The translations under genes were made by a program, and so were the position numbers. The notes under the pieces are model-generated. The model had not been told where the DNA came from. It worked only from the letters and a program-made list of their open reading frames with translations, and did not search any database. DNA of 64,000 bases from an uncultured Bacteroidales bacterium (GTDB lineage Bacteria > Bacteroidota > Bacteroidia > Bacteroidales > Muribaculaceae): assembly GCA_947176235.1 (NCBI GenBank), contig CAMWPM010000006.1, forward strand, positions 1-64,000, in the 5' to 3' direction. Positions 12,560 to 31,403 of the stretch are shown here, piece after piece (the first letter of the stretch is position 1; each line of letters starts with the position of its first letter).

Positions 12560-12596
12560 TGACTTCTTTTGTCCGAAGAAGTTTGGTAGTACATAG

Positions 12597-12993
12597 TGGA
12601 GATGGAGGGGGTTGAACCCTCGTCCAAACGCGGAATTAATGAGCTTTCTACATGCTTAGTCACTACTTGGTTTTCGTGGCACCACAGGCAAGCGACGACC
12701 AATGGTGTCCTTATCCTCTAAAGTTTCGGAATCATCGCGAGGCTTTCAGATTCCTATTCCCGATTTACCTGCACCACCTGTTCGATCCGTCTCGGGACGT
12801 TGACAATCGGGTGATGTCTTGTCTCAGCAACTGTTGCCGAGATTAAGCTGATCTACTGTACTTCAATCAAGCAGCAAGAGCGTAGTTGTTTTCGCCATTT
12901 AAATTTTTGATGTCCCAGATTAAAGAGCGTAGCCATCATTGCTCTGCATGCTTACTTCACCACTTCTACACGCTGTCAAAACCGGTCATCCCC
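12597..12993 (-). ncRNA. ssrA: tmRNA
   Basis: Transfer-messenger RNA for trans-translation. The 5' end GGGGATGACCGG pairs with the 3' end CATCTCC to make the tRNA-like acceptor stem. The T-arm GGGTTCAACCC is near the 3' end and the tag frame GGC GAA AAC AAC TAC GCT CTT GCT GCT TGA encodes GENNYALAA then stop, the known Bacteroides-type tag. The genome has CTA rather than CCA after the discriminator A, so CCA must be added enzymatically. Length of about 397 nt is normal. The minus-strand terminator is at 12526-12559. Confidence 0.96.
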
Positions 12994-27143: not shown

Positions 27144-27176
27144 TTGTTGCGATTTAAAAATAAAGACGTAACTTTG
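27144..27176 (+). promoter_or_regulatory. promoter of the Phe/Tyr biosynthesis operon
   Basis: TTGTTGC (27144-27150) as -33, then TAACTTTG (27169-27176); the spacing is 18 or 21 bp depending on which TTG is used. Predicted start near 27183, giving a leader of about 255 nt before pheA that carries the peptide and terminator described below. Confidence 0.7.
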
Positions 27177-27245
27177 CATCGAAATCTTTAATCCTGCCAT
27201 GCGCCAGATGACAAACGGCGGGACTAAACAAACAAGAAACAGAGA

Positions 27246-27320
27246 ATGACACGATTTTTCGCATACTATTATTTTTACTTTTATTTCGCAGGGAATAAGA
27301 GCGGGAATGAGTGTGCGTGA
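27246..27320 (+). CDS. Phe/Tyr leader peptide of an attenuator
   Basis: Too short for ordinary gene calling: ATG at 27246, TGA at 27318-27320, 24 residues. After MTR, positions 4-14 read FFAYYYFYFYF, ten aromatic residues of eleven (five Phe, five Tyr), then AGNKSGNECA. The downstream operon makes exactly these two amino acids. The frame is followed by a small hairpin CGAC...GTCG (27327-27350) and a terminator at 27368-27405. This is the classical leader-peptide architecture, in which ribosome stalling at Phe/Tyr codons under starvation would prevent terminator formation. Not a recognised annotated gene; function inferred. Confidence 0.85.
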   Translation: MTRFFAYYYFYFYFAGNKSGNECA

Positions 27321-27326
27321 GAATCC

Positions 27327-27350
27327 ACGACAGCCGAAAGGCAAAGTCGA
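27327..27350 (+). promoter_or_regulatory. pause-type hairpin in the Phe/Tyr leader
   Basis: CGAC-A-GCC, loop GAAA, GGC-AAA-GTCG. Its GTCG (27347-27350) could alternatively pair with CGAC at 27388-27391, which overlaps the 3' arm of the terminator, giving a candidate antiterminator. Confidence 0.5.
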
Positions 27351-27367
27351 CAAGACGAAAAAAGCAG

Positions 27368-27405
27368 TTCCCGCGGTGAGCAACCTCCGACGGGAAATTT
27401 TTTTT
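27368..27405 (+). terminator. attenuator terminator upstream of pheA
   Basis: TTCCCG (27368-27373), inner GG/CC, CGGGAA (27391-27396), then A and eight T's. It lies between the leader peptide and the pheA ATG (27438), so full-length transcription of the operon requires read-through. Confidence 0.85.
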
Positions 27406-27437
27406 ATAAAAGCAAAAAACGAAACGAAAATAACGAC

Positions 27438-28286
27438 ATGAAACGAAGAGTGACAATCCAGGGTGTGGCAGGGTGCTTCCATGATGCAGCAGCCCGTGGC
27501 TACTTTGAAGGCGAAGAGGTGGAAACGGTGCCTTGCGACTCTTTCCCTGAGCTTTTCGAGCAACTTCAAGCCGATGCGTCGCTCTTAGGCATTGTGGCGA
27601 TCGAGAATACGATAGCCGGCAGCCTTCTGCCGAATCACGAACTGCTGAGGCTCGGCAATCACGTGATAGTGGGTGAATACAAAAAGCGGATCTCGCACGT
27701 GCTCTGCGCGCTTAAGGGCCAGACGATAGATGATCTGACGGAAGTGAATTCGCATCCTATGGCTCTGATGCAGTGCGAACAGTACCTGCGCCGTCATCCC
27801 AACATGAGGATGGTGGAGAAATTTGACACAGCGGGAAGCGCCCGTGAGATAGCCGAGAAGCAGCTGGAAGGGCATGGAGCAGTGTGCGGGGAACTTGCCG
27901 CCGAACTCTACGGACTCGACATCCTGGAGCGCGGAATAGAGACGAACAAGCGAAATTTCACGCGTTTCCTCGTGCTTGCCGATCCTCTGACCGCGCCCGA
28001 ACTAAAACCACGCGACGAGGAACTGAACAAGGCGTCGGTGGTGTTCACGCTCCCACACACCCACGGCGCACTCTCGAAGGTGCTGACGATATTCTCATTC
28101 TACGATATCAATCTGTCGAAAATCCAGTCGATGCCGATACTGGGGCGCGAGTGGGAATACCGGTTTTACGTGGATCTGACGTTTGACAGCTTCGTGCGTT
28201 ACCGTCAGGCAATAGATGCCGTCAGGCCACTAATGAATGATTTCAAGGTGCTCGGCGAATACATGGAGTGCAATAACGAAGTGTAG
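27438..28286 (+). CDS. pheA: prephenate dehydratase
   Basis: Converts prephenate to phenylpyruvate for phenylalanine. 282 residues, monofunctional: the PDT domain starts VTIQGVAGCFHDAAARGYF, has VAIENTIAGSLLPNHELL and the NFTRFLVL catalytic TRF motif near 178. A C-terminal ACT domain (HTHGALSKVLTIFSFYDINLS, then KIQSMPI in place of ESRP) gives allosteric control by Phe. It is the first structural gene after the attenuator; the next gene follows in 38 bp. Confidence 0.95.
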   Translation: MKRRVTIQGVAGCFHDAAARGYFEGEEVETVPCDSFPELFEQLQADASLLGIVAIENTIAGSLLPNHELLRLGNHVIVGEYKKRISHVLCALKGQTIDDLTEVNSHPMALMQCEQYLRRHPNMRMVEKFDTAGSAREIAEKQLEGHGAVCGELAAELYGLDILERGIETNKRNFTRFLVLADPLTAPELKPRDEELNKASVVFTLPHTHGALSKVLTIFSFYDINLSKIQSMPILGREWEYRFYVDLTFDSFVRYRQAIDAVRPLMNDFKVLGEYMECNNEV

Positions 28287-28324: not shown

Positions 28325-29506
28325 ATGAACGAAATAGCGAAAAAGATAGTGCCGGCTGAGCGCGTGAATGAGGTGAAGGAATACTACTTCTCGCGCAAGC
28401 TGAAAGAAGTGGCGGAACTCAACGCCCGCGGGCTCGACATCGTGTCGCTCGGCATCGGCGGTCCTGACCGGATGCCTGCTCCCGAGGTGATCGACACCCT
28501 CTGCGATGCAGCGCGTCAGCCCGGCAACCACAGCTACCAGCCATACGTGGGAATAGCGGAACTCAGGAAGGCGATGGCTGACTGGTATGACCGCACATAC
28601 GGCGTGAAGCTTGATCCGAAGACCGAGGTGCAGCCCCTCATCGGATCGAAAGAGGGAATACTGCACATCTCGCTGGCTTTCCTCAATCCCGGCGACGGAG
28701 TGCTCGTGCCGAATCCGGGTTATCCGACTTACACGTCGGTGAGCCGTCTCGCCGGAGCCGAGATATTCAACTACGACCTGAAGGAGGAAAACGGCTGGAT
28801 GCCTGACTTCGAGGCTCTGGAGCGTCTGCCCCTCGACAGGATAAAACTGATGTGGGTGAACTATCCGCACATGCCCACGGGCACTCCGGCGAGCATGGAA
28901 CTGCTGGAGAAGATAGTGGCTTTCGGGCGTCGGCACGGCATTGTGATAGCGCACGACAATCCCTACAGCTTTATCCTTAATGACTGCCCGCTGAGTCTGC
29001 TGCAGGTGGAGGGGGCGAAGGATGTGGCGATCGAGATGAACTCTCTGAGCAAGAGCCACAATATGGCAGGGTGGCGCATAGGCATGTTGGCGTCGAACCC
29101 TACATTCGTGCAGTGGGTGCTGAAAGTGAAGAGCAATATCGACTCAGGGCAGTTCAAGCCGATGATGCTTGCCGCGGTGAAGGCTTTGGGAGCCGATCAG
29201 GAATGGTATGACTCGGTGAATGAAGTGTACGCCGACCGCCGCAAGGTGGCTGAAGAGATAATGACTGCTCTCGGCTGCACTTATGATCCCCGTCAGCGTG
29301 GACTCTTCCTCTGGGGCAGAATCCCGGAAGGAGCAGAGTCGAGCGAGCGGCTTGCCGATGATGTGCTCTACGGCGCACGTGTGTTTGTCACCCCCGGCTT
29401 CATCTTCGGAAGCAACGGCGAGCGATACCTTCGCATATCGCTCTGCGCCACCCGCGAGAGGATGGAAGAGGCTCTGAGGCGTATCAAAGAATGGAAAAAG
29501 AAATAA
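28325..29506 (+). CDS. PLP-dependent aminotransferase (aromatic amino-acid type)
   Basis: 393 residues, fold-type I aminotransferase of the AspC/LL-DAP group. The N-terminal SLGIGGPDRMP, the VLVPNPGYPTYTSVSRL substrate loop, HDNPYSF with the PLP-contacting Asp, and NSLSKSHNMAGWRIGML with the Schiff-base Lys are all present. In this operon it most likely transaminates phenylpyruvate and 4-hydroxyphenylpyruvate to Phe and Tyr (inference from neighbours). Substrate range cannot be read from sequence. Confidence 0.9.
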   Translation: MNEIAKKIVPAERVNEVKEYYFSRKLKEVAELNARGLDIVSLGIGGPDRMPAPEVIDTLCDAARQPGNHSYQPYVGIAELRKAMADWYDRTYGVKLDPKTEVQPLIGSKEGILHISLAFLNPGDGVLVPNPGYPTYTSVSRLAGAEIFNYDLKEENGWMPDFEALERLPLDRIKLMWVNYPHMPTGTPASMELLEKIVAFGRRHGIVIAHDNPYSFILNDCPLSLLQVEGAKDVAIEMNSLSKSHNMAGWRIGMLASNPTFVQWVLKVKSNIDSGQFKPMMLAAVKALGADQEWYDSVNEVYADRRKVAEEIMTALGCTYDPRQRGLFLWGRIPEGAESSERLADDVLYGARVFVTPGFIFGSNGERYLRISLCATRERMEEALRRIKEWKKK

Positions 29507-29547: not shown

Positions 29548-30621
29548 ATGGAAGATATTCTCCCCCTTCAACTCAACGGACAGGATCTGGACCGTCCGAT
29601 AATCATCAGCGGTCCGTGCAGCGCCGAAACAGAAGAACAGGTGCTGACCACGGCTCACGAACTTAGCCAGAACGGAATCAAGATATTCCGCGCGGGCATC
29701 TGGAAGCCGCGTACGAAGCCGGGTGGCTTCGAGGGTGTTGGTGTCCCCGGACTTGAATGGCTCAAGAAAGTGAAGGAAGAGACCGGCATGGCAACATCGA
29801 CGGAGGTGGCAACCCGCGCTCACGTGGAGGCTGCACTCGCCGCCGGTGTGGATCTGCTCTGGATCGGCGCACGCACGTCAGCCAACCCGTTTGCGATGCA
29901 GGAGATAGCCGATGCTCTCGCTGATGCCAAAGCCGACGTGCCGGTGCTCGTCAAGAATCCGGTTAACCCCGATCTGGAACTGTGGATCGGCGCCCTGCAG
30001 CGCATCTACAATGCGGGAATACGCCGTCTCGGTGCGATCCACCGCGGATTCAGCGCCTACGGCAAGCATCTCTACCGCAATCTGCCGCAGTGGCATATTC
30101 CCATCGAGCTACGCCGCCGTATGCCCAATCTGCCTATCATCTGCGATCCGAGCCATATCGGCGGTAAGCGCGAGCTGGTGGCTCCGCTGTCGCAGCAGGC
30201 GATGGACATGGGATTTGACGGCCTGATCATCGAATCGCACTGCGAGCCTGACTCGGCGTGGAGCGACAAGAGCCAGCAAGTGACGCCCGACGTGCTCAAC
30301 TATATTCTCAACACGCTCGTGCTCCGCTCCGAATCACAGTCGACGGAGAATCTGACGCTTCTGCGCCAGCAGATCGACACGATAGACAACGAGCTGCTGG
30401 AGACGCTCAACAAGCGAATGCGCGTGAGCCGCGAGATCGGTCAGTACAAAAAGGAGCACCGGATGCCCGTGCTGCAGGCGGCACGCTACGACGACATCAT
30501 GCAGACACGCGTGAAGCTTGCCGAAGAAATGGGGATGAGCGCTGAATTCATGCGTACGGTGCTTGCCGCAATCCATGAGGAGTCAGTGAGGCAACAGATC
30601 AATGTGCTCAACCAGCGATAA
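29548..30621 (+). CDS. bifunctional DAHP synthase / chorismate mutase
   Basis: 357 residues. The N-terminal AroG-type (type I-beta) DAHP synthase covers about 1-250: PIIISGPCSAETEEQV, FRAGIWKPRTKPGGFEG, VLVKNPVNPDLELW, GAIHRGFSAYG and ICDPSHIGGKREL. A type II chorismate mutase helix bundle lies at about 265-350 (LRQQIDTIDNELLETLNKRM, REIGQYKKEHRMPV). One chain thus opens the shikimate pathway and commits chorismate to prephenate. The fusion order DAHPS-CM is common in Bacteroidetes. Confidence 0.94.
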   Translation: MEDILPLQLNGQDLDRPIIISGPCSAETEEQVLTTAHELSQNGIKIFRAGIWKPRTKPGGFEGVGVPGLEWLKKVKEETGMATSTEVATRAHVEAALAAGVDLLWIGARTSANPFAMQEIADALADAKADVPVLVKNPVNPDLELWIGALQRIYNAGIRRLGAIHRGFSAYGKHLYRNLPQWHIPIELRRRMPNLPIICDPSHIGGKRELVAPLSQQAMDMGFDGLIIESHCEPDSAWSDKSQQVTPDVLNYILNTLVLRSESQSTENLTLLRQQIDTIDNELLETLNKRMRVSREIGQYKKEHRMPVLQAARYDDIMQTRVKLAEEMGMSAEFMRTVLAAIHEESVRQQINVLNQR

Positions 30622-30632
30622 ATGACTGAAAA

Positions 30633-31403
30633 ATGAAGATACTGATACTTGGCGCCGGCAAAATGGGGTCGTTTTTCTGCGACCTGCTGTCGTTTGACCA
30701 CGATGTGGCGATTTATGATGTGGATCCCGAACGTCTGCGGTTCACGTTCAACTGCCGACGCTTCACGACGATTGACGAAATCCGTGAGTTTGATCCTCAG
30801 CTCGTGATCAATGCGGCGACGGTGCGCTACACGCTCGATGCATTCCGCGCGGTGATGCCTGCGCTCAGCAAAAGTGCGATCCTCAGCGACATCGCCTCGG
30901 TGAAAACGGATCTGCCGGAGTTTTATGCCACGTGCGGTCATCCGTTCGTATCGACACACCCGATGTTTGGACCGACATTCGCTTCACTCAACAATCTGCA
31001 GAACGAGAACGCCATCATAATCAAGGAGGGTGATCATCTGGGAAAAGTGTTTTTCAGGGATCTCTACAACCGGCTGCATCTGCACATAGAGGAATACACG
31101 TTTGCGGAGCATGACGAGACGGTGGCTTATTCGCTGTCGACGCCGTTTGCCTCTACGCTTGTGTTTGCTTCGATGATGAAGCATCAGGATGCGCCGGGCA
31201 CGACGTTCAAGCGACACCTGGCGATTGCTCACGGGCTGATGTCGGAGGATGACTATCTGCTGAGCGAAATCCTCTTCAACCCTCTGACGTCGAGGCAGCT
31301 CGAAGGCATACAGCAGCAGCTGAGCCGACTTCAGGAGATCGTGGAACAACGTGACTCCGAGGCGATGAAGAAATATCTGGCGGAGGTACGGGAAAATTTA
31401 TAA
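30633..31403 (+). CDS. tyrA: prephenate dehydrogenase
   Basis: 256 residues. Rossmann dinucleotide motif ILGAGKMGSFF at the start, ILSDIASVKTDLPEFY, then STHPMFGPTFA as in TyrA enzymes. An all-helical C-terminal dimerisation domain follows, with HDETVAYSLSTPFASTL. It makes 4-hydroxyphenylpyruvate for tyrosine. No ACT domain is attached, so feedback may act on other enzymes or through the leader attenuator. It starts 11 bp after the DAHP synthase-CM gene and closes the operon. Confidence 0.92.
   Translation: MKILILGAGKMGSFFCDLLSFDHDVAIYDVDPERLRFTFNCRRFTTIDEIREFDPQLVINAATVRYTLDAFRAVMPALSKSAILSDIASVKTDLPEFYATCGHPFVSTHPMFGPTFASLNNLQNENAIIIKEGDHLGKVFFRDLYNRLHLHIEEYTFAEHDETVAYSLSTPFASTLVFASMMKHQDAPGTTFKRHLAIAHGLMSEDDYLLSEILFNPLTSRQLEGIQQQLSRLQEIVEQRDSEAMKKYLAEVRENL

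Follow-up and report, generated by a model that had tools for sequence, protein, structure and literature searches.

Candidate phenylalanine/tyrosine leader-peptide attenuation of the pheA operon in Muribaculaceae and other Bacteroidia

Known attenuators and the pheA locus

The enterobacterial pheL leader (Rfam RF01859, Phe_leader) and the attenuators of the trp, his, leu and thr operons have in common with the locus described here a short ORF with codons for the product of the operon, the alternative pairings 1:2, 2:3 and 3:4 of the transcript, and an intrinsic terminator. The present locus differs from enterobacterial pheL in possessing both Phe and Tyr codons, in standing before an operon of four genes that includes aroG and tyrA, and in its Bacteroidetes promoter. 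Attenuation in bacteria has reportedly been compared by Lopatovskaya et al. 2010, possibly including Bacteroidetes.

In Flavobacterium psychrophilum, strong clues of leader-peptide attenuation before amino-acid operons are described, and a structured 5' element of pheA is conserved in other Flavobacteriaceae and absent from Rfam (PMC9723704). This element shares phylum and gene with the Phe/Tyr leader, but the main text contains no peptide, no analysis of Phe/Tyr codons, no alternative pairings and no spread into Bacteroidales. The Bacteroid-trp RNA motif (RF01692; PMC2864571) is cis-regulatory in Bacteroidetes as well, and both of its loci that were examined here encode WWW leaders; however, it concerns Trp and not Phe/Tyr, and no match to it was found in the window, in the pheA leader of the window or in the respective genome. 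For B. thetaiotaomicron, sORFs reminiscent of leader peptides are reported, pheA not being named (PMC7366714). A literature search with few subscription journals yielded no paper on a dual Phe/Tyr leader. A preliminary description of the locus had considered a dual Phe+Tyr version in Bacteroidales not commonly described; the idea has some precedent in the phylum, given the Flavobacteriaceae work (PMC9723704) and the WWW leaders.

The window, i.e., the whole stretch of 64,000 nt that was analysed, contains the following features:

27144..27176 (+): Bacteroidetes-type promoter, TTG(TTG) at 27144-27149, spacing of 19 nt, TAACTTTG at 27169-27176 (from sequence and relatives)
27246..27320 (+): leader peptide ORF MTRFFAYYYFYFYFAGNKSGNECA plus stop, 24 residues, 25 codons with the stop (from sequence; 141 similar leaders in relatives)
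27255..27287 (+): regulatory codon run, codons 4-14 (F F A Y Y Y F Y F Y F), constituting switch segment 1 (from the 1:2 own-versus-swapped test and synonymous-codon order)
27290..27325 (+): segment 2, partner of segment 1, duplex of about -30 kcal/mol (from pairing tests and folding)
27301..27308 (+): core of segment 2, GCGGGAAT, 5' arm of the antiterminator (from 2:3 pairing tests)
27367..27376 (+): segment 3, GTTCCCGCGG, partner of segment 2 (antiterminator) or segment 4 (terminator) (from pairing tests)
27387..27405 (+): segment 4, CCGACGGGAA, and T8 tract, 3' half of the intrinsic terminator (from hairpin prediction)
27438..28286 (+): pheA, prephenate dehydratase, PDT and weak ACT (Pfam, PDT E 1e-50)
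28325..29506 (+): class I/II aminotransferase, AT (Pfam)
29548..30621 (+): DAHP synthase fused to chorismate mutase, aroG/CM (Pfam)
30633..31403 (+): tyrA, prephenate dehydrogenase (Pfam PDH_N)

The region with promoter, leader and terminator is situated between the end of an anaerobic ribonucleotide reductase gene (26960) and the start of pheA (27438). Elsewhere in the window, a tmRNA gene is found at 12594-12993 (-) (RF00023, E 1e-55).

Transcription presumably starts near 27183. Among relatives, a TAnnTTTG box is present at most 90 nt upstream in 115 of 139 leaders (83%, versus 6% in shuffles), at a median distance of 26 nt before the leader ATG. The leader (M-T-R-F-F-A-Y-Y-Y-F-Y-F-Y-F-A-G-N-K-S-G-N-E-C-A-stop) carries Phe or Tyr at 10 of the 11 codons 4-14, and when the 450 nt preceding pheA were shuffled 1000 times with dinucleotides preserved, no short ORF with more than 5 Phe/Tyr per 12 codons arose; the leader ORF is thus enriched in codons for the products of the operon. 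A genome-wide search with its codon pattern gave a single exact match, the pheA leader itself, and looser matches were not more frequent than in the control. Between the leader ORF and pheA, an intrinsic terminator is predicted (hairpin 27368-27396, -14.1 kcal/mol, followed by T8 at 27398-27405), which is absent from the list of a simple consensus scanner, probably due to its bulge and loop. The aromatic-rich ORF of 24 codons, the promoter upstream of it, the terminator with eight T's and the downstream Phe/Tyr operon had all been named in the preliminary description, and hold on closer analysis; Pfam recognises all four genes of the operon (pheA-aminotransferase-aroG/CM-tyrA).

Leader ORFs near genes may boost translation, with an excess at 11-14 bp in Bacteroidetes (PMC4833913), such that translational coupling or reinitiation from the leader might take the place of transcription attenuation. 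Here, however, the leader stop lies 117 nt upstream of pheA, and the intervening intrinsic terminator with its U tract is kept in nearly all leaders, which renders this explanation extremely improbable.

Alternative pairings and ribosome position

Three mutually exclusive pairings are found: 1:2, a long hairpin in which the aromatic run binds the end of the ORF (in the window, about -30 kcal/mol), 2:3, the antiterminator, and 3:4, the terminator. The sequence of segment 4, the 3' arm of the terminator, recurs in segment 2, and the two are rivals for segment 3. In the window, GCGGGAAT (27301-27308) pairs with GTTCCCGC (27367-27374), the counterpart in segment 4 being CGGGAA (27391-27396); the layout in relatives is ..CGGGATTTTATGTGCG-stop .. 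ATATAAAATCCCG-loop-CGGGATTTTTTT. Concerning these pairings, the preliminary description has to be corrected. It had proposed a pause-type hairpin and an alternative GTCG/CGAC pairing, and a hairpin of CGAC (27328) with GTCG (27346) is indeed predicted in the window sequence alone; however, the spacer at 27321-27360 shows no conservation in relatives, so that this pairing is ruled out as the antiterminator, and the relevant upstream hairpin is 1:2 instead of the one in the spacer.

All three pairings are maintained through compensatory changes in orthologous leaders, which had been suggested beforehand as a check. Matched changes in 2:3 comprise GGTGGGA/TCCCACC (L146), GCAGGATTT-AAATCCTGC with one shift (L030), AGGATTGT/ACAATCCT (L193) and GACCGGGA/TCCCGGTC (L149). 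Over 134 leaders, the best 2:3 duplex has a mean of -15.8 kcal/mol, compared to -6.7 kcal/mol with the segment 2 region shuffled and -11.3 kcal/mol with partners swapped among leaders (z -20, 0/5000 permutations), and 1:2 is likewise stronger with its own than with swapped partners (z -18, 0/5000 permutations), both differences being seen in every group, with effects of common descent not fully removed. Permuting the synonymous Phe and Tyr codons inside a leader weakens 1:2 in 107 of the 134, and the hairpin is predicted to form as a protector when the leader is not translated.

When a ribosome footprint was imposed on the window RNA and its A site moved codon by codon, positions at codons 6-15 gave the antiterminator, whereas the terminator resulted at codons 3-5 and 16-24, at the stop codon and with naked RNA. 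A point against the switch is that equilibrium folding of the full leader is terminator-dominated in many of the relatives: just 52 of the 134 leaders form the antiterminator at one or more codons of the run and the terminator at the stop, and many relatives keep the terminator even with a stalled ribosome. Folding was therefore supplemented with that of the transcript before segment 4, in which segment 3 pairs upstream with a mean probability of 0.74-0.81 when the ribosome is stalled in the run and of 0.12-0.18 when it is at the stop codon. Since many leaders stay terminated at equilibrium, the switch there would have to be kinetic, i.e., decided co-transcriptionally as in the classical model. 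It also counts against the switch that naked RNA is predicted to form 2:3 before segment 4 in many relatives (mean of about 0.6), though not in the window (0.13). The covariation and the simulation both support an antiterminator incompatible with the terminator, which the ribosome would free or mask depending on its position.

A metabolite- or tRNA-binding riboswitch or T-box, with an incidental ORF, would likewise possess antiterminator and terminator in a structured 5' region. Yet conservation is highest in the ORF and its codons and lacking in the spacer, every pairing involves the ORF or the terminator, and the window leader has no match in Rfam, such that a riboswitch or T-box has hardly any probability left. 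RF01859 in particular gave no match in the window at its gathering score; sub-threshold matches at the leader site exist in several Bacteroidales leaders (L161, 36.9; L162, 33.6; L139, 30.2; L142, 30.0 bits; gathering score 55), 36.9 bits being the maximum among relatives. The Phe/Tyr leader element is without an Rfam family of its own. A weak match of leader L031 to the Rfam sRNA BTnc005 (E 0.065) was discarded, since the BTnc005 hits in 19 genomes are situated at other loci and score below the cut-off.

From the conserved run, the compensatory pairings and the correspondence between codons and gene content described below, the Phe/Tyr leader-peptide attenuator proposed in the preliminary description receives support, and we regard it as very probable that the element works by ribosome-mediated transcription attenuation of the trp/pheL type, sensing charged tRNA-Phe and charged tRNA-Tyr. 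Transcription would begin at about 27183, and a ribosome would start on the leader ORF. With Phe or Tyr in short supply, it would stall in codons 4-14 and open the 1:2 hairpin, segment 2 (GCGGGAAT) would capture segment 3 (GTTCCCGC) ahead of the synthesis of segment 4, and with the antiterminator formed, RNA polymerase would continue into pheA-AT-aroG/CM-tyrA. With both amino acids plentiful, the ribosome would reach the stop codon and cover segment 2, such that 3:4 would pair and transcription end in the T8 tract. What we infer from the sequences is that the ORF is translated, that ribosomes stall, that transcription terminates or reads through, and that the element responds to Phe and Tyr.

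Distribution and codon composition of the leaders

Upstream regions of pheA were taken from the family, the order and the class. A first set of 110 loci, 100 of them non-redundant, contained an aromatic leader in 66 of the 100, with a consensus of about MTRFYAYYFSYFYFAKNKNGILCA; among the 34 without one, five are truncated by a contig end. Further loci of Bacteroidales possess it in 60 of 65 cases, across about 40 family-level groups according to genome-set labels, and other orders of the class Bacteroidia in 15 of 27. In total, 141 leaders were analysed, spanning Muribaculaceae, about 40 additional family-level groups of Bacteroidales and several further orders of the class. The aromatic run, on whose conservation among relatives the preliminary description had staked its reading, is hence conserved.

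Within Muribaculaceae, codons 1-13 of the leaders exhibit 242, 540 and 654 nucleotide differences at codon positions 1, 2 and 3, respectively, as expected if exchanges between Phe and Tyr (position 2) and synonymous substitutions (position 3) do little harm. The N-terminus MTRF(Y/F)AYY is well conserved in this family, and functions of leader peptides in trans have been reported (PMC7298713), which might speak for a functional small peptide similar to peTrpL. Outside the family, however, the N- and C-terminal residues vary freely while the aromatic run and the pairings persist, such that a product acting in trans appears very unlikely as the explanation of the ORF, although it could coexist with attenuation.

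What also counts against the reading is that a sizeable minority of the Muribaculaceae pheA genes has no leader. At 11 loci (L052, L053, L057, L058, L059, L063, L068, L072, L076, L081 and L100), pheA lies close behind another gene whose end resembles YchF or MetH, as judged by eye, and no leader is found within 420 nt of pheA; here, attenuation has apparently been lost.

Two complete Phe/Tyr leaders in series before pheA, each with its own terminator, are observed at about twelve loci of several family-level groups (L122, L123, L124, L141, L146, L161, L162, L163, L167, L170, L180 and L210), whereas the pheA leader of the window is a single gate. The arrangement resembles the tandem attenuators of Salmonella mgtCBR with their two short ORFs in series (PMC3641672), but both gates of the pheA loci carry Phe/Tyr codons, unlike in mgtCBR, where the signals are different.

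Concerning codon composition, Tyr makes up a mean share of 0.49 in the 131 leaders that precede an operon containing an aminotransferase, aroG or tyrA, with at least one Tyr in each, whereas the 16 leaders of stand-alone pheA (e.g., MITINNSFFFFFFRSDPEKGL and MTRFFTHFFFFFTQQ) have a mean Tyr share of 0.04, with at most one Tyr each. Stand-alone means here that no aminotransferase, aroG or tyrA was detected downstream; at four of the 16 loci no such gene was found by Pfam among the neighbours examined, which are ilvD-ilvB, a C25 peptidase, DUF5320/ARMT1, and an ORF without family, and for most of the remaining loci the comparison, by tblastn, covered 1.5 kb downstream. Left out of the comparison were the leaders at five f28 loci and at L303, which look like unrelated reading frames and lack a terminator, as well as three doubtful operon cases (L078, L090 and L135). 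One apparent exception, L276, a seemingly stand-alone pheA with a Phe/Tyr leader, was dismissed: tyrA is found two genes downstream by Pfam, so that the rule holds.

Three changes in the stand-alone state are seen in the PheA tree, each accompanied by a Phe-rich leader. In one genus (G062 and G421), the operon is split: the pheA leader possesses the Phe-only run FRFFFFFAFFF, and the detached AT-aroG-tyrA lies on a different contig, preceded by a leader, MIKNISVFAYFYYYFYFSKK (FAYFYYYFYF), and a terminator of its own. The coordinates of the Phe/Tyr leader of a split-off AT-aroG-tyrA, with a terminator and with pheA having a Phe-only leader, are 2878-2937 in L316 and 2921-2980 in L317 (both reverse-complement). 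If codons set the specificity, the make-up of the leader should follow the genes it controls, and this is what is observed: leader codons match the products of the operon across evolution.

These data also bear on the possibility that the leader senses Phe only, the Tyr codons being passive and TWY supplying the pyrimidine-rich strand for the 1:2 hairpin. The codons of both amino acids are rich in pyrimidines, or nearly so, and the segment with which the run pairs is purine-rich; a purely structural need, however, would not follow gene content. Leaders of stand-alone pheA lose Tyr but retain the run, at all three changes in the tree, those of operons with aroG or tyrA stay at about half Tyr, and the detached AT-aroG-tyrA operon likewise has a Tyr-rich leader. 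Sensing of Phe alone is thus unlikely, though less remote than a peptide acting in trans. The way in which leader codons follow gene content once operons have split amounts to a natural experiment, and suggests that specificity resides in the codons and not in the hairpin alone.

Other leaders in the phylum and implications

His-rich short ORFs are found before hisG in about half of 19 loci of Bacteroidales, many of them with a terminator-like hairpin (L318, L322, L326-L329 and L332-L335; e.g., MTNLLTSHHHHHGISLKEAW in L332, and MRLNRHHHRHHHHYSTGGAE). The Bacteroid-trp loci L213 and L214 contain, near position 1520, the Trp-run leaders MVNRFWWWHLQLLEM and MNLTSVNKFWWWHLQLQQS. At L263 (about 1137-1270), an Ile-rich short ORF, MRHMLTSIIFIILTCHGKK, is followed by a terminator-like hairpin upstream of ilvD-ilvB and likely constitutes an ilv attenuator.

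In view of the His leaders at hisG and the WWW leaders at Bacteroid-trp, leader-peptide attenuation looks general in the phylum, which indicates a standard device for Phe/Tyr and also for His and Trp. For gut Bacteroidales, the attenuator would be a clear means of controlling the synthesis of aromatic amino acids, and one that can be tested. Regarding its history, it is somewhat more likely than not that the pheA operon was under dual Phe+Tyr attenuation already in the ancestor of the class Bacteroidia, that the leader codons were re-tuned to nearly Phe-only about three times where pheA became separate, and that some lineages acquired two serial gates. If this is true, the class would offer natural variants for two-amino-acid sensing and for multiplicative gating, readable from sequence and directly testable.
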